Positions 438-14,286 of a stretch of 44,850 bases of DNA are shown piece after piece. The notes beneath the pieces were generated by a model. It had not been told where the DNA came from and did no database searches. It saw nothing but the letters and a program-made list of their open reading frames with translations. Position 1 is the stretch's first letter. Each line of letters begins with the position of its first letter. Source of the stretch: Zoogloea sp. 1C4 (GTDB lineage: Bacteria > Pseudomonadota > Gammaproteobacteria > Burkholderiales > Rhodocyclaceae); assembly GCF_009469605.1 (NCBI RefSeq), contig NZ_SSXU01000027.1, positions 1 through 44,850 on the forward strand, in the 5' to 3' direction. The translations under genes were made by a program, and so were the position numbers.

Positions 438-613
438 GTAGGTCGGGTTAGCGCAGCGTAACCCGACAACAAAGGCCCCGCGCACCCGGCCCCGGATCGA
501 CTTGACCGATGCGACGCCCCACCACAATGGCAGGGGACGAAGCACCGACGGGTAGGTTGGCGTGACGGGATTTCACGAGAAGCGTTGGGTTACGCGGGGC
601 TAACCCGACCTAC
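438..613. repeat. Dispersed palindromic element with GTAGGTCGG-type ends
   Basis: An arm beginning GTAGGTCGGGTTAGC (438-467, itself ending in AACCCGAC) has an inverted counterpart at 585-613 that ends CTAACCCGACCTAC. Between them is a second GTAGGTTGG head at about 552. I see no coding potential. The right edge at 613 coincides exactly with the point where the adjacent minus-strand reading frame is cut off. Related ends occur at 7499-7623 and 37885-37997. It is likely a REP/MITE-like dispersed repeat. Confidence 0.7.
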
Positions 614-723
614 GCCAACTGCCGCTCCACCCCGGCCCCCCCGCCAGCGGCGAGGAGGGCGTTGAGTTCGGCTTCGGCCGCGGCGGGGTCGAGGGCGGGG
701 ATGGAGAAGAAACGGAGTTGCAT
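610..723 (-). pseudogene. Truncated DGR accessory protein (HRDC-type), N-terminal 37 codons
   Basis: The frame starts at the ATG at 721-723, only 3 nt after the stop of the large FGE-domain gene on the same strand. It encodes MQLRFFSIPALDPAAAEAEL and then NALLAA...GVERQLA before a TAG at 612-610. This opening matches, from memory, the N-terminus of the accessory proteins found between target gene and template repeat in many diversity-generating retroelements, often annotated as HRDC-domain proteins. Intact relatives are several times longer. Here the frame ends at the exact boundary of the dispersed repeat (613), so insertion or recombination has removed the rest. The position downstream of a variable-region gene fits a DGR remnant. 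The alternative is a chance short frame, which the recognisable start and tight spacing argue against. Confidence 0.6.
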
Positions 724-726
724 GGT

Positions 727-3666
727 TTATTTTTTCTTTGATTGATCTGGCTTGGGCGAAAAACCAAACGTTGCCTTGACGCGATCCCACATCGTCGCCG
801 GCGCCGGCCCGGCGTCCCGCCGGGCCGGCGAGCCCTTCGGCACGCCCTCGCCCCGGCCCCCTCCCGGGGCCGGGCTCTTCCCTTGTGGCCCCTCCGGGGC
901 CACCGACGCCTCCGGCGAGCGCTCCGCGCTACTTGTGGACCTCAGGGAGAAGCGAAAACCCCGGGAGCCGTCGCGCACGCCACGGCGCCAGTGGCCGCGG
1001 AAGGCAGCGCGCAGCCAGCGCGGGTCGACGATCCACGACCCGCCACGCAGGGCGCGCAGGGCTTCAGCCTCGTCGCCCGCCGGGCCGCGCGGGTCCACCT
1101 GCGGCGCGCCGTCGTATTGTCGCGGGCCGTCCGCACACCATTCCCACACGTTGCCGTGCATCTGGTACAGGCCCCACGCGTTCGGGGCGTAGCTTTTGAC
1201 CGGAACCGTCTTTTTCCGGTACTCGCCCGTCGGGCCGTTGGCGTAGCTTTCCGTTGCCCGATAATTGGCCTGATCCAGCGTAATCCCATCGCCCCAGCTG
1301 AACGCCGTATCGCTGCCCGCACGGCACGCGTATTCCCACTCCGCTTCCGTCGGTAAATCTGCCTTTACACCGGGCAGGCGCTTTTCCACTTCCCTCAAGA
1401 AGCCTTGCACATCGTCCCAGCTCACCTTCTCTACCGGGTTCTGAGGGTCGTCCGTAAAGTTACTGGGATTGCTCCCCATCACCGACGACCACACAGCCTG
1501 GCTGCACGCCGTCTCCGCCAGCCAGAAACCTTCCGTCACACGAACCACATGACGCGGGCCTTCATCTTCCTCGCGCCCCACCTCGCCTTCCGGCGAACCC
1601 ATCACAAACTCACCCGGCTCGATCCACCGGAAACGCTGGGTGGCGGAACCGAAGGGGACGTCGATATACAAGCCAAACTCAAGGTCGGCCCCCATCCAGA
1701 CGCGTTCGCCGATATGTTCGGCCTCTGCATTGAAGCCGCGTGGCGACGGTGGCCAAACGTAGTCATCGCCACGCCCAGGCGGAACCCATGCCAGCCGTAC
1801 CGGCTTTCCAATTGGCGATGGTGCATAGGCGTAGAGCGTCACGCCCATGCACTCCCATTCCAGCGCCCACGACGGCCGCGGAATCTCCGCCACCGTGGCC
1901 CGCACCCAGGCGGTCTCAATGGTCCACGGCCCGGCCCCAGACACCAGTCGCCCAAGGGGCAGGGGCAATTCATCCACCGCGTGCCACTGGCGCGGCTGGC
2001 CGGGTGCGCTGAGTTCAAAGCCCGTATCGTCCGGGCTGCGTACCAACGGCCACGCCCCTTGCTCCGGCGGGTCGACGCAGACCATGAGCTGCCCTTCGTG
2101 GTGGGCGAGACACAGGGGCACCGCGTCCTTGCCCCGCCGGGGGTCGCTCAACAGCCGGTTGAGCACGGCGGCAGACACCCCGGCCGGCACCGGCGCGCCA
2201 CCGCGCAGGGCGTCGCGCCGGGCGCGCACATAGGCTTCCTGCAAGTGGGGCACCGACGCCCACAGGCGTTCGTGGGCACGAGGCCCCAGCCGGGCGAGGT
2301 AGGACGACAGCGCCTGCGCAGCCCGGCTGTGGGGGTGGTGGGCCAGGGTGCGGGCGGCGGCCGCCCAATCGTCGTCGGCCGCGTCGGCCTGCCAGTCGGC
2401 CAGATCGGCAGCCAGGGCGCGCTCTTCCATGCGGATCAGGTTGGAGAGGCCCCGGTGGTGATGCTCGACGATGCGGGCAACCCGTTGCCGGCAATCCAGC
2501 GGAAGGTTGCGCACCCCAGTGCGGTGGTGGGCCGCACGCTCGGCGCGTATCCACATGCCCAGCTCGCACTGCCCCACGTCCTCGTGGTTCCAGACCGCCA
2601 TCTCGACCTCGAGCGGCATTTGCAGTGACAGCCGGATCTCCCTCAGCAGCGCCGGTTCAACACGCACTGCCAAGGACAAGGCCGCAAGCAGCCGCTCCAC
2701 CTCCGCGCCCATCCCGGCCTCGGACGCACGCCCACGGCCGGGCACGAGCCGCCGGCCATGATCCCAGCGCACCAGTTGCAGCCGCCCGGGCAGGGCGCGC
2801 TGGCTAGCCGGATCGATGGCGCCTGCCAGCACGGTTGCGCTGCCGCCGGCCGCCAGATGTTCGCGCAGACGGCGCACCCAACCGGCGCGACGAGTCGAGT
2901 CCTGACCATGCACGGCCAGATCGCCGGCAAGCAGCCAGTGCTTCGTGTTCGTCAGGGTGCGCTCGTCGGTCTTTTTCCACTCCGGGCGAATGCCATCGCC
3001 ACGAATTTGCCATTCGTGCTCGGGAGTGAGGGCAAGAACGGTCAGATTGCCACGGGAGAGGCGGTAGGCCAGCTCGGCGAGTTCGACGAGATCGCTGTCG
3101 AGCGGCTGGGCAAGCACGCTCTTGTCGATGACCAGCGCTGCCTGCCGACTCCACTGGGGGCGCCGGAGCCGGGGCAGCCGACGGGGAAAACGCATGTACG
3201 CCGCCTGCGCAACCAGCTTGGGCACATCCAGGGCGCGCCCCGGCTGCCGTTGGCGCAAGTGCCGCCGCAGGAAGACCGCCAGACGTCGCTCGGGGCTAAG
3301 GGGGATGCTCGCAGGCGGCGCCTCGCCGCTGCCATCCAGACTGTCGATGATGGGGCCGGCAGGGTCGTCGGTGCGCAGCAGGTCATCGTCGGTCGGGGCA
3401 GGAAAGCTCTCCAGACTCACTACCGCAAAGTGGGTTGCCTGCAGAGGCGGCCGACGCTGCCCTTGGGGGAGGGGAGGCTTGGGGGGCTTGGGCGGGGGTT
3501 GTTTCGGCGGTTCGGGCGGTTCGGGCGGTTTGACGGGCTCGTAGCCCAGCAAGCCGGCAACATCCGCCGTTGCCGTCGGCCCGAGCGTATCGAGCAGCCG
3601 GAGCAGGTCGGCCCGACCGAGCGTGCTGCGCGGTGCGGGCTGCGGTTGAGGCCGGCGCGGCTTCAT
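727..3666 (-). CDS. Degenerate vWA-like / C-terminal FGE-sulfatase (C-type lectin fold) protein; DGR target
   Basis: This 979-residue protein is the last gene of the operon. Its ATG overlaps the MoxR stop as ATGA (3666-3663). Residues about 48-72 are a Pro/Lys-rich linker. Residues about 170-290 look like a degenerate vWA domain: a VIDKS strand ending is followed by helix/strand alternation, but a full MIDAS motif is not clear. From about 679 (EPGEFVMGSPEGE) to 909 it is an FGE-sulfatase/SUMF1-type domain, with LPTEAEWEYACRAG and GLYQMHGNVWEWCAD. The terminal LRGGSW...GFRFSLR block lacks the catalytic cysteines of true formylglycine-generating enzymes, so it is more likely a ligand-binding C-type-lectin fold. 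That block is the proposed DGR variable region. A low-complexity tail ends in SKKK. I infer a sensor or recognition subunit acting with the protease and ATPase. The N-terminal assignment is weak. Confidence 0.85.
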   Translation of the reverse strand: MKPRRPQPQPAPRSTLGRADLLRLLDTLGPTATADVAGLLGYEPVKPPEPPEPPKQPPPKPPKPPLPQGQRRPPLQATHFAVVSLESFPAPTDDDLLRTDDPAGPIIDSLDGSGEAPPASIPLSPERRLAVFLRRHLRQRQPGRALDVPKLVAQAAYMRFPRRLPRLRRPQWSRQAALVIDKSVLAQPLDSDLVELAELAYRLSRGNLTVLALTPEHEWQIRGDGIRPEWKKTDERTLTNTKHWLLAGDLAVHGQDSTRRAGWVRRLREHLAAGGSATVLAGAIDPASQRALPGRLQLVRWDHGRRLVPGRGRASEAGMGAEVERLLAALSLAVRVEPALLREIRLSLQMPLEVEMAVWNHEDVGQCELGMWIRAERAAHHRTGVRNLPLDCRQRVARIVEHHHRGLSNLIRMEERALAADLADWQADAADDDWAAAARTLAHHPHSRAAQALSSYLARLGPRAHERLWASVPHLQEAYVRARRDALRGGAPVPAGVSAAVLNRLLSDPRRGKDAVPLCLAHHEGQLMVCVDPPEQGAWPLVRSPDDTGFELSAPGQPRQWHAVDELPLPLGRLVSGAGPWTIETAWVRATVAEIPRPSWALEWECMGVTLYAYAPSPIGKPVRLAWVPPGRGDDYVWPPSPRGFNAEAEHIGERVWMGADLEFGLYIDVPFGSATQRFRWIEPGEFVMGSPEGEVGREEDEGPRHVVRVTEGFWLAETACSQAVWSSVMGSNPSNFTDDPQNPVEKVSWDDVQGFLREVEKRLPGVKADLPTEAEWEYACRAGSDTAFSWGDGITLDQANYRATESYANGPTGEYRKKTVPVKSYAPNAWGLYQMHGNVWEWCADGPRQYDGAPQVDPRGPAGDEAEALRALRGGSWIVDPRWLRAAFRGHWRRGVRDGSRGFRFSLRSTSSAERSPEASVAPEGPQGKSPAPGGGRGEGVPKGSPARRDAGPAPATMWDRVKATFGFSPKPDQSKKK
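940..1050 (-). other. Probable DGR variable region (VR) in the FGE domain
   Basis: Codons 873-909 of the 979-aa protein run from LRGGSW to GFRFSLR. In many DGR templates for this fold the positions after GGSW, before LRAA, after AA and before GFR are Asn (AAC/AAT). Here they read IVD, W, F, GHW, V and DGS. Of these twelve codons nine end in C, as expected if AAC codons were changed at their first two adenines; the exceptions are two TGG and one GTG. Only five adenines occur on the coding strand in 111 nt. This is the pattern of adenine-specific mutagenesis. No template repeat was found in the window, so the call rests on the pattern alone. Confidence 0.7.
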
Positions 3667-4616
3667 GCGGGCGGCTGTTTGCTGAAGACAAAGCCACGCA
3701 AAGCCTCGATGTGCTCGCCGGCATCGCCGCCGATGCCTTCGAGGGCGCGCAGCAGGTCGAGGTATTCGGCGAGCCCGGGCTTGTACACGCCGGCTTCATG
3801 GGCTGCCCTGCGATCCTCGATGAGCATCTGGGCGGCGGCGGTGGGCACCTCCGGAAAGGCAGCGCAGAGCTTTGGAAAATGCAGCTTGCCGCGCTCCTCA
3901 AGAAATTCGATAAACCCGCCCTCATCGGGCAGCTTGAGGGTCAGCACGAGGCAGCGGCGCAGAAAGGCGGGGGGCAGTTCCCGCTCGTCGTTGGTGGTGA
4001 CGACGACCAGCGGCGGCGGAACGCCTTTCCCCCGCGCCACCACCCGCCCCGTCGGCCCCACCGTGAAGCGCCCGTTGCCCAAGGCTTCGAGCAGGCCGTT
4101 GGGCAGATCGGCCTCGGCCTTGTCGATCTCGTCGATGAGCAGCACCGCGCCGTCGGCGGGCGTCCATTCTTCGTGGGGCAGGTCGGGAGAGGGGCCGCCG
4201 GGCCGGTAGTGCTGCAATTGCGCAGCCGCGCCGTTCCAGTCGAAGGCCCACCACAGGGGGCCGGGCTCGACATAGCGGGATACATCCAGGTCCCGTGGGG
4301 TCTCGCCGCCGGGCACAGCGGCGAGGTGGGCATCGGCCAGGCGGGCCACGGCGTCGAAGCGCCATTGCAGATCGCTGGCCTCGCTGCGGGCGTCCACCAC
4401 CACCGAGAGGAACAGGCGCTTGCTGGCCCATGCTGCGGCGTGGGCCAGCTGGCTCTTGCCGGTGCCGGGCTCTCCGCGCACCAGCAAGGGGCGGCCGGCA
4501 GCCTCGGCCGCGCGCAGGGCGTTGATCTGCTTTTCGTCGAAGCGGTGTTTGCTAGCGGGCCAGGTGCCCATGGGGGGCAGATCGAGATCGATGACGTCGT
4601 AGGAGGGCAGCTTCAT
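3663..4616 (-). CDS. MoxR-type AAA+ ATPase
   Basis: This AAA+ ATPase has 317 residues from the Met at 4616, whose ATG overlaps the protease stop as ATGA. An alternative start four codons upstream at 4628 is possible. Walker A GEPGTGKS is at about 48-55, Walker B LLIDEIDK at about 159-166, a sensor-1 segment VVVTTNDERELPP at about 204-216, and arginines follow in FLRRC. A helical C-terminal lid completes the domain. MoxR ATPases remodel or activate partner proteins, commonly vWA proteins. Here the partners are probably the protease and the FGE/vWA-like protein with which the gene is translationally coupled. Its 3' end overlaps the next start by 4 nt. The family call is firm and the partner assignment is inference from the operon. 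Confidence 0.93.
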   Translation of the reverse strand: MKLPSYDVIDLDLPPMGTWPASKHRFDEKQINALRAAEAAGRPLLVRGEPGTGKSQLAHAAAWASKRLFLSVVVDARSEASDLQWRFDAVARLADAHLAAVPGGETPRDLDVSRYVEPGPLWWAFDWNGAAAQLQHYRPGGPSPDLPHEEWTPADGAVLLIDEIDKAEADLPNGLLEALGNGRFTVGPTGRVVARGKGVPPPLVVVTTNDERELPPAFLRRCLVLTLKLPDEGGFIEFLEERGKLHFPKLCAAFPEVPTAAAQMLIEDRRAAHEAGVYKPGLAEYLDLLRALEGIGGDAGEHIEALRGFVFSKQPPA

Positions 4617-6040
4617 GCGGGGTTCCATTCGGGCTGATTGACGAGTTTCACGAACTCATGAATGCGCGCGAGCAGTTCGGCTTCGTCGCACAGATAGTAG
4701 GGTGCGCTGTCGTCCTCGGGGTCGCGGAGCAGCAGCAGGCTGATGCCAAGCTGGCTTTGCAGCCAGTCGGCAAGCTCCTGCCGCAAGGCGGGCGAGATCT
4801 CACCCTCCAGCACCAGCAGGCGCGCCCGCCCCTCTCTGGCTTCGCTGCGGAGATAAGCCCTGAGCTGGCTCATCATGGCCTTGCTCACATTGGCCGGCAG
4901 TGGATTGAGCGGAAGGACGATCTTGTGGATCAGGCGGGCGATCTCCTTCTGGCGGTCGGGCCCTTCCCCCATTTCGAAACCGGCCGCAGCATGCGCGAGC
5001 TTGTCTTGGACGGTGGGAATACCCGATGGGGTGGCGCCCGCCTCCCAGCATCGCCCGCGATTCAGGCCGGTGACGATCGCTGCGCTGGCCGGCGACATCG
5101 CTTCCAGCTCGATGATCGCGTCGAGCCCGCTGCCATCGGTAGCCGCACGGCAGGGCAGCATCTCCGGATCGAGGCATAGCCGCACGCTCAACCCCATCGC
5201 GTCGAGGAGGCGCTCGCGAGCGGTGTTGCGCTCGGTCTGCCCGAGCGTGACCGAACCATCCTTGAGCCGGGTTGCCGCCTGCTTGAGCGAGTCAATCAGC
5301 GCTTCGACACAGCGCTCACCGAGCGTTGCGGAATCGGTCTTCTCCAGCGCCTTGGCGAGGGGCCTTGGCAGGCCATCTTCCAGACCGCCAAGCACGGTGG
5401 CAAACACCGGGCTTTCGAAACTCGCCTTGAGCCGGCCCCGCATGTCGGCCACCCACTCATCCCAGCTGGGCGGAGGGAGAATCCGGCCGAGATCGGGTAT
5501 CTCGCTGCAAAGCCATTCCCACAGCTGATGGATCGCGATGGCGCAGCCGCGGTGGATGTTGGCGTCCTCGTAGTGCCGCACGGTCATGCCCCACACCCGG
5601 GCGCCGACGCAGGCGGCACTTCCGCTGTGGCCCTTGGGCTGCTTGCTCGACAAGAGGTAATGCGCTTCGCCCTCATCGAAGCGGGTGACGGTGTAGGGGT
5701 GAGCCGCCTCCCGACGCCCCTCGAAGTAGCCGTTGAGCTGCACTTCGCCCGGCTGCGTCTTACCCAGGAGGGGCTGCAGTACGGCAGCGCCTGCGGGCAT
5801 TGCATCCAGCGTGACCACAGCGGCATCCAGCTCATGATGAATGGCCAAACGCTCCGCGCTCACCGGATAGCACCCCGTCGCGCCCGCTTCGGGTCGCAAC
5901 CAGAGCCCGGTCCCCTCGTCAGTCAAGTGCTTTGCGGTAAGCACCTTTGCCGGAGCGATGAAGAAGCCGCTGCCAACAAAGTGCGCGCTATCCGTTGAAT
6001 TTGGTGAGTTCCAAAAGGAAACCAGTGCGTCCTTGACCAT
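4613..6040 (-). CDS. Trypsin-like serine protease with large C-terminal region
   Basis: This 475-residue protein has an N-terminal chymotrypsin-fold protease of about 160 residues and no signal peptide, so it is probably cytoplasmic. The triad is readable: His38 in LTAKHLTDE, Asp72 in HELDAAVVTL and Ser139 in KGHSGSAA, preceded by the fold's VGSGFFIAP strand. The remaining 300 or so residues match no domain I can name with certainty. They contain helices and a pattern such as SPASAAIVTGLNRGRCWEAG and EARLLVLEGEISPALRQEL-like strands. This resembles the C-terminal modules of proteases in MoxR/vWA-associated conflict systems, but I cannot verify that. It lies 10 nt after the Trypco1 gene and overlaps the MoxR gene. 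It probably acts as a triggered effector or as an activating protease. Confidence 0.88.
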   Translation of the reverse strand: MVKDALVSFWNSPNSTDSAHFVGSGFFIAPAKVLTAKHLTDEGTGLWLRPEAGATGCYPVSAERLAIHHELDAAVVTLDAMPAGAAVLQPLLGKTQPGEVQLNGYFEGRREAAHPYTVTRFDEGEAHYLLSSKQPKGHSGSAACVGARVWGMTVRHYEDANIHRGCAIAIHQLWEWLCSEIPDLGRILPPPSWDEWVADMRGRLKASFESPVFATVLGGLEDGLPRPLAKALEKTDSATLGERCVEALIDSLKQAATRLKDGSVTLGQTERNTARERLLDAMGLSVRLCLDPEMLPCRAATDGSGLDAIIELEAMSPASAAIVTGLNRGRCWEAGATPSGIPTVQDKLAHAAAGFEMGEGPDRQKEIARLIHKIVLPLNPLPANVSKAMMSQLRAYLRSEAREGRARLLVLEGEISPALRQELADWLQSQLGISLLLLRDPEDDSAPYYLCDEAELLARIHEFVKLVNQPEWNPA

Positions 6041-6050
6041 GCCGTGCGCC

Positions 6051-6401
6051 TCAGTCTTTCGATGCCGGAGCCGCCGTCTTCCACTTCACATTGACCTTCA
6101 GTTGGGCATTGGCTTCGCCCGAGGCCACGAACACCCCGATGTCGGCCTTGAAACCCAGGGTTAGTTCCAGCGACACCTCATCCGGCTTGAATTTGTCGAG
6201 AGCGTCCTTTGCCGGGCTGACCACCGCAGCCAAAGTTGCAGCCACATCCACCTTCTTCAGAGCATCGGCTGTCGTTGTTGCCGCCGATGTATCGGCAAAG
6301 CGCCCGCTCTTTTTGGGGGCCCCGACAACCTGCGAAACCGACTCCGCCTCCACCCACAGCATCTGCCCGTTGATTTCGATCTGCTCGATCTGACGCGTCA
6401 T
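6051..6401 (-). CDS. Trypsin-co-occurring domain (Trypco1/CU044_2847-like) small protein
   Basis: This 116-residue protein is the first gene of the operon; a GAGAGG ribosome-binding site precedes the ATG at 6401. The N-terminal half begins with a short strand pair (IEINGQMLWVEAE). The C-terminal half, KPDEVSLELTLGFKAD, then IGVFVASGEANAQLKVNVKW, matches the consensus I know for Trypco1, a domain named for its repeated occurrence next to trypsin-like proteases. No signal peptide or transmembrane segment is seen. The protease gene starts 10 nt after its stop. Its biochemical role is unknown; regulation or recruitment of the protease is a reasonable guess from co-occurrence. Confidence 0.8.
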   Translation of the reverse strand: MTRQIEQIEINGQMLWVEAESVSQVVGAPKKSGRFADTSAATTTADALKKVDVAATLAAVVSPAKDALDKFKPDEVSLELTLGFKADIGVFVASGEANAQLKVNVKWKTAAPASKD

Positions 6402-7257: not shown

Positions 7258-7488
7258 GGGTAATTGCCACCCTCCGTTGCCCAATTTTTAGGCGACGCTG
7301 CCTGATTTTTAGGCAACCGAGGGTAACCGGCACCCTCGGTCGCCTCATTTTTAGGCGACGTCGCCTAAATCTTAGGCAGCGCTGCCTAAAAATTAGGCGG
7401 CATTGCCTAAACTTTAGGCAGCAGAGGGTAATCGGGAGGGTCGATTGCCTAAAGATTAGGCAATCGAGGGTGAGCGCTACCCTCCCGC
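7258..7488. repeat. Phased array of 11 palindromic units on a 21-bp pitch
   Basis: Fifteen-bp imperfect palindromes start at 7258, 7279, 7300, 7321, 7342, 7363, 7384, 7405, 7426, 7447 and 7468, every one exactly 21 bp after the last. Two types alternate irregularly. Type A, GCCTAAANNTTAGGC-like, occurs seven times, at 7279, 7300, 7342, 7363, 7384, 7405 and 7447. Type B, GGGTAANNGNNACCC-like, occurs four times, at 7258, 7321, 7426 and 7468. The 6-bp spacers vary, and some extend the palindromes; around 7447 the symmetry reaches about 27 bp. The pitch is two helical turns, which would place every unit on the same DNA face. The open frames here on both strands are artefacts of a repeat length divisible by three. 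Confidence 0.85.
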
Positions 7489-7498
7489 TGTCCACGAC

Positions 7499-7623
7499 CC
7501 TGTAGGTCGGACTTCAGTCCGACATTTCGTGCGATCCGGATGGCGCGAGATGTTGGTCGATTGCCCGACCTACAGGGGCGGGGCGGCGGGGGTGGGTGTC
7601 GGACTGAAGTCCGACCTACAGGG
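7499..7623. repeat. Dispersed palindromic repeat (GTAGGTCGGACTTCAGTCCGAC family), copy 1
   Basis: A head CTGTAGGTCGGACTTCAGTC at about 7500 is followed by a CCGACCTACAGG tail (7566-7577) and then an inverted head ending at 7622. Each head carries its own internal hairpin, GTCGGACTTCAGTCCGAC. The same head and inverted head recur at 37885-37964. The element lies just upstream of the FAD-oxidase gene and does not code for protein. Confidence 0.8.
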
Positions 7624-7714
7624 TCGTGGGGAGCGGGGCTTTCCCGGGTAGTGATCCGCGCCAAACCGCGCTACCCTCTCGCCCACTTCCCAATCCCAAT
7701 TTCCCACGCCTGCC

Positions 7715-11152: not shown

Positions 11153-13030
11153 ATGAAGACCCTGCCCGCCCTCGGCGCCGCCCTCGTCCTTGCCGCGCTG
11201 CCCGCCTGGGCCGCACCCATCGACGACCTGCTGGCCGCAGCCCGCGCAGCCCGCCTCGCCGACGACCCCGCCTGGGCCGACCTGCTGCAGTACGAGCCCG
11301 CCCCGGTCAACGGCCGCCTGCGCAGCCTGGCCGACGACGCCAGCTTCTTCAACGCCCCCGACGGCGCCACCAACGCCGCCGCCGAACTCGACGCGACCCT
11401 CGCCCGGCTCGTCGAGCCGGCCCGCCCCGACGCACCCGACGAGCACCCCCAGTGCCGCTTCCCGGCCCGCTTCCACTGGCTCAAGTCGCGCCTGCCCGAG
11501 CTCGCCCGGGCCACCCCGGACCAGCCCTGCCCGCGGCTGGCAGCCTGGGCCGCCGAGATCCGCCCGGCCGGCGCGACCCTGGTGTTTCCGTCGGCCTACG
11601 TGAACAGCCCGGCCTCGATGTTCGGCCACACCCTGCTGCGCATCGACGCCGAGGGCCAGACCGACGCCACCCGGCTCCTCGCCTACACCATCAACTACGC
11701 CGCCAAGGCCGACGCCACCGACGGCTTCACCTTCGCCATGAAGGGCCTCTTCGGCTTCTACCCCGGCACCCTGTCCAGCTCGCCCTACTACGTGAAGGTG
11801 CGCGAATACAGCGACATGGAAAGCCGCGACGTGTGGGAATACCGGCTCAACCTGACGCCCGACGAGACCCGCCAGCTGCTGCGCCACGCCTGGGAGATCG
11901 GCGCCACGCGCTTCGACTACTGGTTCTTCGACGAGAACTGCTCGTACATGATCCTGCGCCTGCTCGACGTGGCCCGGCCGGGCCTGCGGGTGTCCCAGCG
12001 CTTTCCCCTCACCGCCATCCCGGTGGATACCGTCAAAGGCGTGGTGGATGTGCCGGGCCTGGTCACCGACATCACCTTCCGCCCCGCTGGCGGCACCGAG
12101 CTCGCCCACCGGGCCAGCCGTCTGCCGCCCGACGCCATGGCCGCCGCCATCGCCGTGGCCGACGGCAGGCAGACGCCAGCGAGCCTGGGCACCGCGCCGC
12201 TGGCCATCGAACAGCTCGAATTCGCCGACCGGCTGGTGTCCTTCCGCGGCCACGCCGGCAAGCTCGACCAGGACGACGCCCTCGCCCGCCTGAAGGCCAT
12301 CCAGACCACCCGCAGCCGGCTGCCCGCCATCGACACCGGCAGCGTGCCGGTGCCACCGCGCCCCGAGACCGGCCACGCCTCCGGCCGCGTCGGGCTCTCG
12401 GCCGGGCGGGCCGCCGGCGCACCGGCGCTGTTCCTGGGCCTGCGCCCGGCCTACCACGACCTGCTCGATCCGGAGACCGGCTACAGCCGCGGCGCCCAGA
12501 TCCGCTTCTTCGACATCGCCGCCAGCCAGCGCGAAGGCCACGGCTGGCGCCTGGACCGTTTTCTGCCGGTGGATATCGTCTCCGTCGCCCCGCGCCGGGA
12601 ATGGACCCAGCCCCTGTCGTGGAAAGTGCGCTTTGGCTGGGAGCGCAGCCTGGGCTACCCGCTCGCCCCCAGCCCGATGGTGGCCGGCGGCCCCGGCGCC
12701 GCGTGGGAGTGGCGGAACCTGATGGCCTACGTCTTCCTCGAGAACCAGATACTCACCCAGGGCCGGCTCGAAAAGCGCTGGGCCATCGGCACCGGCCCAC
12801 TGGCCGGCCTGCTGTGGGATGTGGCCCCGGCCACCCGCGTGCAGCTCGAAGCCAGCCACCAGTGGTTCAACGACAGGCGCCTGGAACGCAGCCAGGCCCG
12901 CGCCCTGCTGCGCCACAGCCTCGGCCCGCGCAGCAACCTGGTGGCCGAGTACGAATGGACCCGAGCCGAACTGCCCGCCGACACGCCGCAGGCGCGCCGC
13001 ATCGCGCTGGGCTGGCAGCTTTACTTCTAG
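11153..13030 (+). CDS. DUF4105 (Lnb N-terminal-like) periplasmic/outer-membrane protein
   Basis: This 625-residue protein has an N-terminal signal peptide (MKTLPALGAALVLAALPAWA). The central DUF4105 domain shows the family hallmarks: FPSAYVNSPASMFGHTLLRI, YTINYAAKA, GLFGFYPGTLSSSPYY and WFFDENCSYMILRLLD. The invariant-looking His (FGHT) and Cys (ENCSY) suggest a papain-like NlpC/P60-type active site, though activity is not established for the family. The last 230 residues alternate aromatic and charged residues in strands that could form an outer-membrane barrel. The start ATG at 11153 was chosen because it begins the signal peptide. Its stop overlaps the convergent DUF1501 gene by 4 bp. Confidence 0.87.
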   Translation: MKTLPALGAALVLAALPAWAAPIDDLLAAARAARLADDPAWADLLQYEPAPVNGRLRSLADDASFFNAPDGATNAAAELDATLARLVEPARPDAPDEHPQCRFPARFHWLKSRLPELARATPDQPCPRLAAWAAEIRPAGATLVFPSAYVNSPASMFGHTLLRIDAEGQTDATRLLAYTINYAAKADATDGFTFAMKGLFGFYPGTLSSSPYYVKVREYSDMESRDVWEYRLNLTPDETRQLLRHAWEIGATRFDYWFFDENCSYMILRLLDVARPGLRVSQRFPLTAIPVDTVKGVVDVPGLVTDITFRPAGGTELAHRASRLPPDAMAAAIAVADGRQTPASLGTAPLAIEQLEFADRLVSFRGHAGKLDQDDALARLKAIQTTRSRLPAIDTGSVPVPPRPETGHASGRVGLSAGRAAGAPALFLGLRPAYHDLLDPETGYSRGAQIRFFDIAASQREGHGWRLDRFLPVDIVSVAPRREWTQPLSWKVRFGWERSLGYPLAPSPMVAGGPGAAWEWRNLMAYVFLENQILTQGRLEKRWAIGTGPLAGLLWDVAPATRVQLEASHQWFNDRRLERSQARALLRHSLGPRSNLVAEYEWTRAELPADTPQARRIALGWQLYF

Positions 13031-14286
13031 GCGGTGAGCCCCAGCGGCGCCCGCGCCGCGAGGCCAGGGAAGACCGCCGCCCGGTCACGCTCCGGCAGGG
13101 CCAGCACTTCGGCCAGCACGTGGCGGTGGTCGGTGGTCACCGCCAGATCGACGCCCTGATCGAGGCGCGGTGTATCCAGCCCCGGCCAGTCGCCGAACAT
13201 CCGTCCGCCGCGCACCCCGTCGCCCAGCACCAGCATCGCCGAGCCGTGGCCGTGGTCGGTGCCCTGGCTGCGGTTGGCGCGCAGGCGCCGGCCGAACTCG
13301 GTCATCACCACCACCCGCACCGGCAGCCCGGCGGCCGCCATGTCCCGGTGGAAGGCCGCCAGCCCGCGGGTGAGCTGGCCCACCAACCCATTGAAACGGC
13401 CCGGCTGGGCGTCGTGGGTGTCCCAGCTGGCGTGGTCGATGCACGCCACCCGCAGGCCCACGTCCATCCGCGCGAGGCGCGCGATGGCCTGCAGGCCCTG
13501 GGTGAAGCCGTTGTTCTCGTAGTTGGCGCCGGGTGGCGCGTAGGGCGTCAGGCGGCCGTCGGGCTGGCGGGGCAGGCGCGCGTCCACCAGCGCGGTGCGG
13601 GCCAGCACCCGGGCGCCGGCCTGGCGCACCGGGTCGGTGGCACCAGACGGGTAGAGCCGCGCGAGCACGGCGGCGGCGTCCTTGCCCCCGGCCAGCGGCA
13701 CGCCGCCGGAGAGATCGGGCAGCGCCAGCGCGTCGTCGTAACGCAGCAGCGAGGCCGACATGCCGGCGTTGGCCGACATCGCCGCGATGCGCCGGTCGTC
13801 GCCGCCCCGCTCGCCGAGGGTGGCGAGGTAGCGGGTCAGCCAGCCGCTGTCGCTGCGGGCGTAGTCGGCGATATTCACCACCCCGCGCTCGATCAGGTCC
13901 TGGGCCTCGAAATGGCTGCGGGTGCCGTTCATCAGCCCGCAGGCGTGGAGCACCGCCAGCCGGCCGGCTTCATACAGCTCGAAGAGCGGCCTGGCCTCCG
14001 GGTGCAGGCGGAAATCCAGCCCGCTGCCGAGGCCGTTGGCGAGCGCCAGCCCGGGGCGCTCGCCGCTGTCGAGCACGCGCAGATCGGGCGTGCGGGCGTC
14101 GATGTAGGGCTTGTCGTTGACGGGAGCGACGAGGTTGAGCCCGTCGCAGCCGCCGCGCTGGAAGACCACCACCAGCAGCGGCGTCGGGGCGCCCTCGGCG
14201 GCAAAGGCGAGCCGGCCCAGGCCGGCGAGGGGCGCGAAGGCCCCGGCGGCGGCGCAGGCCTTGAGAAAGTCTCGGCGGGTCGTCAT
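13027..14286 (-). CDS. DUF1501 family Tat-exported protein
   Basis: This 419-residue protein opens with a twin-arginine signal (TTRRDFLKACAAAGAFAPLA), so it is exported folded. The body has the DUF1501 pattern, for example LLVVVFQRGGCDGLNLVAPV, HACGLMNGTRSHFEAQDLIE, GLQAIARLARMDVGLRVACI and TEFGRRLRANRSQGTDHGHG near the C-terminus. The family belongs to the alkaline-phosphatase/sulfatase-like fold but has no established reaction. It follows the DUF1800 gene with a 13-nt gap, the usual pairing, so the two form one transcription unit. The C-terminal codons overlap the opposing DUF4105 stop. Confidence 0.9.
   Translation of the reverse strand: MTTRRDFLKACAAAGAFAPLAGLGRLAFAAEGAPTPLLVVVFQRGGCDGLNLVAPVNDKPYIDARTPDLRVLDSGERPGLALANGLGSGLDFRLHPEARPLFELYEAGRLAVLHACGLMNGTRSHFEAQDLIERGVVNIADYARSDSGWLTRYLATLGERGGDDRRIAAMSANAGMSASLLRYDDALALPDLSGGVPLAGGKDAAAVLARLYPSGATDPVRQAGARVLARTALVDARLPRQPDGRLTPYAPPGANYENNGFTQGLQAIARLARMDVGLRVACIDHASWDTHDAQPGRFNGLVGQLTRGLAAFHRDMAAAGLPVRVVVMTEFGRRLRANRSQGTDHGHGSAMLVLGDGVRGGRMFGDWPGLDTPRLDQGVDLAVTTDHRHVLAEVLALPERDRAAVFPGLAARAPLGLTA

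Follow-up and report, generated by a model that had tools for sequence, protein, structure and literature searches.

The 44,850-nucleotide contig NZ_SSXU01000027.1 of Zoogloea sp. 1C4, a member of a floc-forming wastewater genus, was analysed as one stretch (hereafter the window; contig C61 of a 5.0 Mb assembly with 140 contigs, completeness 100 and contamination 0.25). On its minus strand it carries a four-gene operon for a Trypco1 protein, a trypsin-fold protease, a MoxR ATPase, and a 979-amino acid sensor ending in a formylglycine-generating enzyme (FGE)/C-lectin domain. With a probability of roughly two in three, this operon is a conflict switch of the MoxR-vWA ternary type, its sensor having been written by a diversity-generating retroelement (DGR) and since fixed. 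It is a variant of a kind already in print, in which MoxR conflict sets are diversified by DGRs (Doré 2024; Kaur 2020; Burroughs 2021), and we infer for it a role in defence or kin recognition. The first-pass annotation had described one 10-nt gap and two ATGA overlaps between the genes; these junctions are present, all four reading frames are open, and the operon is real. The assignments it gave to the four products, including the protease triad, are all supported by profile or fold. In its interpretation, the folds, the co-occurrence of the genes and the DGR origin held; the present-day diversification of the sensor did not.

The sensor, its variable region and the apparent loss of the retroelement

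The sensor consists of a GRADL mini-domain, a proline-rich linker, a vWA-like domain, a helical domain, a beta region, and the FGE/C-lectin domain with its variable region (VR). The last of these had been noticed as a hypermutation-type block at the end of the last gene and, judged from its sequence, is a DGR variable region. The best comparison is locus L013 from Accumulibacter sp. SCELSE-10, in which the four genes are followed by a reverse transcriptase (RT) frame and a template. The L013 template (13539-13660) and its own VR (11606-11727) have 17 differences, and 17 of 17 are at template adenines. Compared with the same template, the window VR differs at 19 of 24 adenine sites and at 19 of 98 other sites (Fisher p 6.9e-8); against the templates of relatives, p ranges from 5.1e-8 to 6.2e-4 over the 20 loci, out of 21, in which the template could be anchored. 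C-lectin ligand sites may vary without a DGR, and an excess at adenine sites in the window gene alone is not proof; the DGR origin carries weight because of the intact homologue in L013 and the relic of an accessory gene.

The relatives used throughout are the best 80 of 216 MoxR loci in the genome collection, with 43-71% identity. A scan blind to gene positions found template/VR pairs in 21 of the 80, and either an RT match or a template pair is present in 24. Where at least 5.5 kb of downstream sequence was available (49 loci), an RT match was found in 18 and a template pair in 19, while the profile found no downstream RT in 31, so versions without an RT are common.

The window genome also appears to belong to the latter group. 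The RT profile PF00078 had no matches over the 140 contigs in a first-pass scan, which can miss matches; the control was positive in 6/6 genomes of relatives, including the RT at its place in L013 (contig C62). The L013 RT used as a query had no match in the window genome, the template pattern with three mismatches allowed matched only the VR, and a search with the sensor protein found no second target. A sensor actively diversified by a retroelement, as the first-pass annotation had proposed, is rejected on the ground that neither RT nor template was found in this genome. It appears that the mutating machinery was deleted and that the short fragment reported after the last gene is what remains. 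This fragment is a relic of a DGR accessory gene, which in L048, L035, L069, and others is longer and located between the sensor and the RT; the window keeps only its start. The relic stops at one arm of an element resembling a miniature inverted-repeat transposable element (MITE), and this arm recurs at no fewer than 31 places on other contigs (E up to 0.01; 40 of 267 candidates scored). MITE-linked decay of a retroelement is a known mode, since MITE-like arrays replace RT genes at some Thiohalocapsa loci (Doré 2024, PMC10907252). Because no RT or template was found and a 37-codon accessory relic ends at a MITE-like repeat, the sensor is probably a fixed descendant of one written by a DGR.

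Accessory-gene starts are also cut off in sensor loci L012, L014, L041, L043, and L067, which suggests that retroelements were lost more than once from loci that kept their sensors. The genome of L011 (G103, also Zoogloea) has 16 PF00078 matches, yet no RT within 8 kb downstream of the sensor locus, and has two C-lectin targets there. At the very end of the window contig, positions 12-407 hold the 3' part of a transposase with an integrase core (rve), which puts the assembly break inside a mobile element near the lost retroelement.

In structure modelling, the N-terminal part of the sensor takes the form of a divergent vWA domain. The structure model of residues 1-700 has a mean confidence (pLDDT) of 84.3, and the top structural match of the N-terminal part is NorD, the vWA partner of the MoxR-type NorQ. 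In the metal ion-dependent adhesion site (MIDAS), D181 and D249 are kept, S183 is mostly kept, and the third MIDAS serine is lost. Genes downstream could be read at 76 of the 80 loci; dropping 18 judged truncated, mis-started or odd left an alignment (A3) of the window plus 58. Pfam reported no vWA in any of 59 sensor rows, and a PDB profile search with the sensor N-terminus gave nothing usable (best E 8.1); the degenerate vWA-like region suspected earlier is nevertheless supported by fold and profile. The GRADL hairpin is conserved: among the 55 rows that cover it, 50 have R18, 49 have A19, 52 have D20, and 53 have L21. An actual formylglycine-generating enzyme was considered and rejected: the catalytic cysteine pair of FGE, which we take to lie after the GGSW/Y motif, has no counterpart, as the last cysteine of the sensor is residue 844, the VR begins after it, and no cysteine occurs in or after the VR.

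Gene partners, coupling module and exchange of effectors

The neighbourhood survey recovered the set elsewhere, as had been anticipated. Homologues of all four genes occur together in 3 of the 80 MoxR loci (L010, L013, and L018), and in each the Trypco1 homologue adjoins the protease homologue; the FGE ends are unseen in L010 and L018 because a masked stretch interrupts the sensor frame in the former and the contig of the latter stops short. At a phmmer E of 1e-3, 68 of the 80 loci matched the FGE part, 47 the N-terminal part of the sensor, 6 the protease protein, and 3 Trypco1, and the combination of MoxR, sensor, and some effector is far more widespread than the full four-gene set. The protease protein was found in two of 100 genomes, the window genome (G000) and G005 of the same genus; the latter matched through the C-terminal part, at C9:142608-143447, with coordinates inside L011 (Zoogloea sp. 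JADJBR010000009.1). The Trypco1 protein also matches NCBIfam CU044_2847_fam at 44.5 bits. Among small genes upstream of the effector (48 rows scanned; 47 of 70 candidate frames kept after a filter on length and start), Trypco2 was found in 24 and Trypco1 in four.

The MoxR protein has its best NCBIfam match in the MadB family NF047784, which is linked to the MADS defence system, yet the score is far under the family cut-off (62 versus 475 bits). PADLOC models gave only weak ATPase-level matches to MoxR (best 17.6 bits) and none to the sensor. A second, different MoxR set is present in the window genome from C86:299765 onward (L120:3766-9161), with a MoxR, a VWA_CoxE protein, and an 1138-amino acid protein with TIR_2 and CHAT domains.

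A fold search with the protease protein returned a match list filled by trypsin. The C-terminal module of the protease protein is common to relatives' proteins bearing TIR, phosphoesterase, or trypsin domains. This coupling module is predicted with good model confidence; it has no Pfam name among 77 rows scanned, and its best match in a PDB profile search was a designed protein at E 0.1, which is not usable. For 77 of the 80 loci a gene upstream of MoxR could be read, and with the fragment L066 left out the alignment (A1) comprises the window plus 76. Over the 77 rows Pfam lists 19 families, including TIR_2 in 27, Trypsin_2 in 20, Metallophos in eight, PNP_UDP_1 in two, and SIR2_2, SEFIR, and Pkinase in one each. 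A second alignment (A2) holds the window and 42 chosen rows, 21 of the trypsin class, and the coupling modules were aligned separately (A5).

Comparison of the C-terminal parts by hhalign gave, for the trypsins near the window, E 1.7e-7 with the TIR class, 5.6e-6 with phosphoesterases, 5.4e-36 with L011/L012, and 0.005 with far trypsins. The TIR class matched phosphoesterases at 1e-22, far trypsins at 4.5e-11, and L011/L012 at 8.5e-6, while phosphoesterases matched far trypsins at 2.9e-19. The L011/L012 pairs with phosphoesterases (0.03) and far trypsins (0.46) are uninformative alone, and the 0.005 pair nearly so, because 16 reversed control sequences gave 0.029 or worse. As far as sequence comparison goes, the kinship of the coupling module across effector classes is connected through the TIR class.

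The effectors are clustered on the MoxR tree yet have been repeatedly exchanged. The tree has 81 rows, of which 51 carry an effector label from sequence motifs and 30 are unlabelled; ten rows have less than half of their positions filled, and support is weak for 31 of the 76 inner branches. The fewest effector changes number 11, against a least possible two and a shuffled mean of 22.0, and the well supported branches alone force five changes for trypsin, three for TIR, and four for phosphoesterase. The smallest starred clade holding the window has five rows, three trypsin and two TIR.

Relation to published systems and surrounding sequence

The components of a MoxR-vWA ternary system in the sense of Kaur 2020 (PMC7159879) are all found: a vWA component by fold and profile, a MoxR AAA+ ATPase, and a third component with an N-terminal peptidase on a shared C-terminal module. 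That paper defines Trypco1, the VMAP systems, and their DGR link, and places Trypco1 or Trypco2 beside trypsin; in the window the Trypco1 gene is likewise beside the trypsin-like peptidase gene. VMAP ternary systems resemble the window in combining MoxR, a vWA protein, and a third protein with an N-terminal peptidase or other domain, and in having an FGS/C-lectin domain on the vWA protein and an association with DGRs (PMC7159879). They differ in VMAP-C, for which neither the 77 upstream-gene rows (E up to 0.01) nor a profile comparison gave a match: the coupling modules compared with one VMAP-C protein (L105), the sole basis of this comparison, gave hhalign E 0.11-0.61, which still allows remote fold kinship. 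VMAP-C was found in one of 11 genomes, and a wider scan, not fully sensitive since it missed a match seen earlier in the same genome, gave five of 398 genomes, none above the cut-off. A VMAP system in the strict sense is rejected on the row scan and the comparison with L105.

The closest published loci are DGR 9 of Thiohalocapsa PB-PSB1 and the large clade 5A (Doré 2024, PMC10907252). In DGR 9, MoxR is beside a DGR target with an N-terminal extension of no known domain and a trypsin-like peptidase without a VMAP domain; clade 5A has such extensions, often with Trypco1 or Trypco2 and TIR or peptidase genes nearby. The window shares the MoxR, the extended target, the VMAP-less trypsin-like peptidase, and Trypco1, but its RT, template, and short second target were not found. 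The authors proposed antigen sensing or kin recognition, which by their own statement remains to be tested, and our literature searches turned up no experiment on a DGR, MoxR, trypsin, and Trypco1 system of this sort. Sets that combine DGR, MoxR, trypsin, and Trypco1 are not new, having been put forward earlier as antigen-sensing conflict systems (PMC10907252, PMC7159879). Added here are the vWA model of the sensor N-terminus, the shared coupling module, the DGR evidence from L013, and the probable loss of the retroelement in the window genome. The extensions were without predicted domains in Doré 2024, while the window sensor models as a divergent vWA; the passages available assign no vWA to the extensions of clade 5A or DGR 9, and the terms NorD, AlphaFold, and structure prediction are absent from the text of that paper, supplements aside. 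Nor does its available text describe a single coupling module shared by exchangeable effectors. A cyanobacterial DGR paper lists VWA-CoxE among the N-terminal domains of DGR proteins (PMC7517822).

In Burroughs 2021 (PMC8195603), TERNS3 is described as an alpha+beta module whose usual fusion partner is TIR, proteases being less frequent, and iSTAND2 is linked mainly to trypsin, with FGS domains among the effectors. Like the window, these systems encode their third component 5' of MoxR; however, their vWA and effector-bearing vWA-L are in separate genes, while in the window the vWA, helical part, and C-lectin are in one protein. None of the 19 Pfam families of the upstream-gene rows is named TERNS3 or iSTAND2. 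The coupling module may be TERNS3, the two having been compared by description only. It is doubtful that the operon belongs to a further MoxR-vWA subsystem, with its own coupling module and exchangeable effectors, driven by a retroelement-written vWA-C-lectin receptor whose writing machinery Zoogloea and several relatives delete while keeping the chosen receptor, so that acquired specificity becomes fixed and inherited. Its odds are reduced because the TERNS3 description fits the coupling module.

The coordinates are collected in Table 1. The profile search of the surroundings covered three genes upstream of the operon: one without a Pfam match, one for an FAD-linked oxidase, and one for a chemotaxis-type signalling protein. 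Between the first two, positions 7270-7465 hold a palindrome array of type GCCTAAAnnTTTAGGC, mostly in 21-nt steps; one other array of this type was found in the genome by exact-pattern search (C86:37511-37630). Positions 7484-7637 hold a MITE-like 41-nt inverted repeat, 95% complementary.

Table 1. Features of the operon and its downstream border in the window.
Feature	Position	Strand	Detail
MITE-like element, 30-nt inverted arms 438-467 / 584-613	438..613	.	arms 90% complementary
Relic of DGR accessory gene, 37 codons and stop	610..723	-	longer versions matched in, among others, L048 and L035
Sensor, 979 aa	727..3666	-	FGE-sulfatase 141.4 bits
DGR variable region (from sequence), ends at GFR.SL motif	941..1062	-	differences concentrated at template adenines
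FGE/C-lectin domain, residues 681-905	952..1626	-	PF03781 E 5.2e-41
Divergent vWA domain of sensor (modelled), about residues 165-310	2737..3174	-	fold and profile
GRADL helical hairpin of sensor, conserved, N-terminal, residues 16-42	3541..3621	-	
MoxR-type AAA+ ATPase, likely start 4616 (ATGA overlap)	3663..4628	-	AAA_5 40.3 bits; Walker A/B
C-terminal coupling module of protease protein, about residues 190-475	4613..5473	-	hhalign with TIR and phosphoesterase counterparts
Protease effector domain, residues 1-189 of 475-aa protein, triad H38/D72/S139	5474..6040	-	
Trypco1 protein, 116 aa, trypsin-co-occurring partner	6051..6401	-	PF19493 51.6 bits, E 1.5e-13

Proposed mechanism and competing explanations

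We infer the working of the switch as follows. The C-lectin end of the sensor, of the FGE fold, would bind a foreign or non-self ligand, and the divergent vWA of the sensor would dock in the ring that MoxR forms, on the pattern of NorD and NorQ. MoxR could then use ATP hydrolysis to remodel the sensor, whose helical and GRADL parts would pass the change on to the coupling module of the protease protein. The remodelled module would free or activate the effector of trypsin fold, for which Trypco1 would serve as a partner or a brake, and the activated protease may cut cellular proteins, leading to growth stop or cell death.

A decaying remnant, left without selected function once its retroelement was lost, is favoured by the missing RT and template, the shortened accessory gene, the repeat element at the break, and the transposase fragment with an integrase core where the contig ends. 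However, the four frames are open and their overlaps kept, as are the catalytic triad of the protease, the Walker motifs of MoxR, and the MIDAS aspartates of the sensor, and RT-less versions are common among the relatives, so decay is quite improbable. Maturation of an enzyme or insertion of a cofactor by a MoxR-vWA chaperone, as in NorQD or RavA-ViaA, with the protease only processing the client, is very unlikely. No client enzyme is present in the operon, the three upstream genes scanned are those listed above, protease, TIR, and phosphoesterase replace one another in the third component, and the C-lectin end is hypermutated in relatives. To our knowledge, NorQD has no C-lectin domain, protease, or Trypco1. 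What speaks for a chaperone is the structural match of the sensor N-terminus to NorD and the fact that MoxR-vWA pairs mature enzymes elsewhere: the NorD vWA protein sits in the MoxR ring and NorQD inserts metal into nitric oxide reductase, so that the window shares with NorQ/NorD a MoxR-type ATPase working with a vWA protein (PMC13036017).

In a switch for kin or allorecognition, the sensor would read polymorphic neighbour markers in flocs and the protease would act on non-kin contact, with no role against phage. Against this, the same module carries TIR, SIR2, and phosphorylase-type effectors, which are common in anti-invader systems. Several hosts, namely Zoogloea, Accumulibacter, Thiodictyon, and Lamprocystis, do form flocs, granules, or aggregates (for Accumulibacter, Doré 2024), and kin recognition is named as an alternative in the same paper (PMC10907252), but on balance this reading is unlikely.

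If the extension of clade 5A and DGR 9 is a vWA, the large set of DGR-diversified targets that Doré 2024 found beside MoxR would fit the canonical MoxR-vWA scheme, and the passage of the signal between sensor and ATPase could be pinned to a defined interface, testable on the NorQD model. The coupling module shared under swapped effectors offers one handle on activation with different effectors. The window locus, with a probably fixed sensor, one protease, and no mutating element found, is a simple object for such tests.
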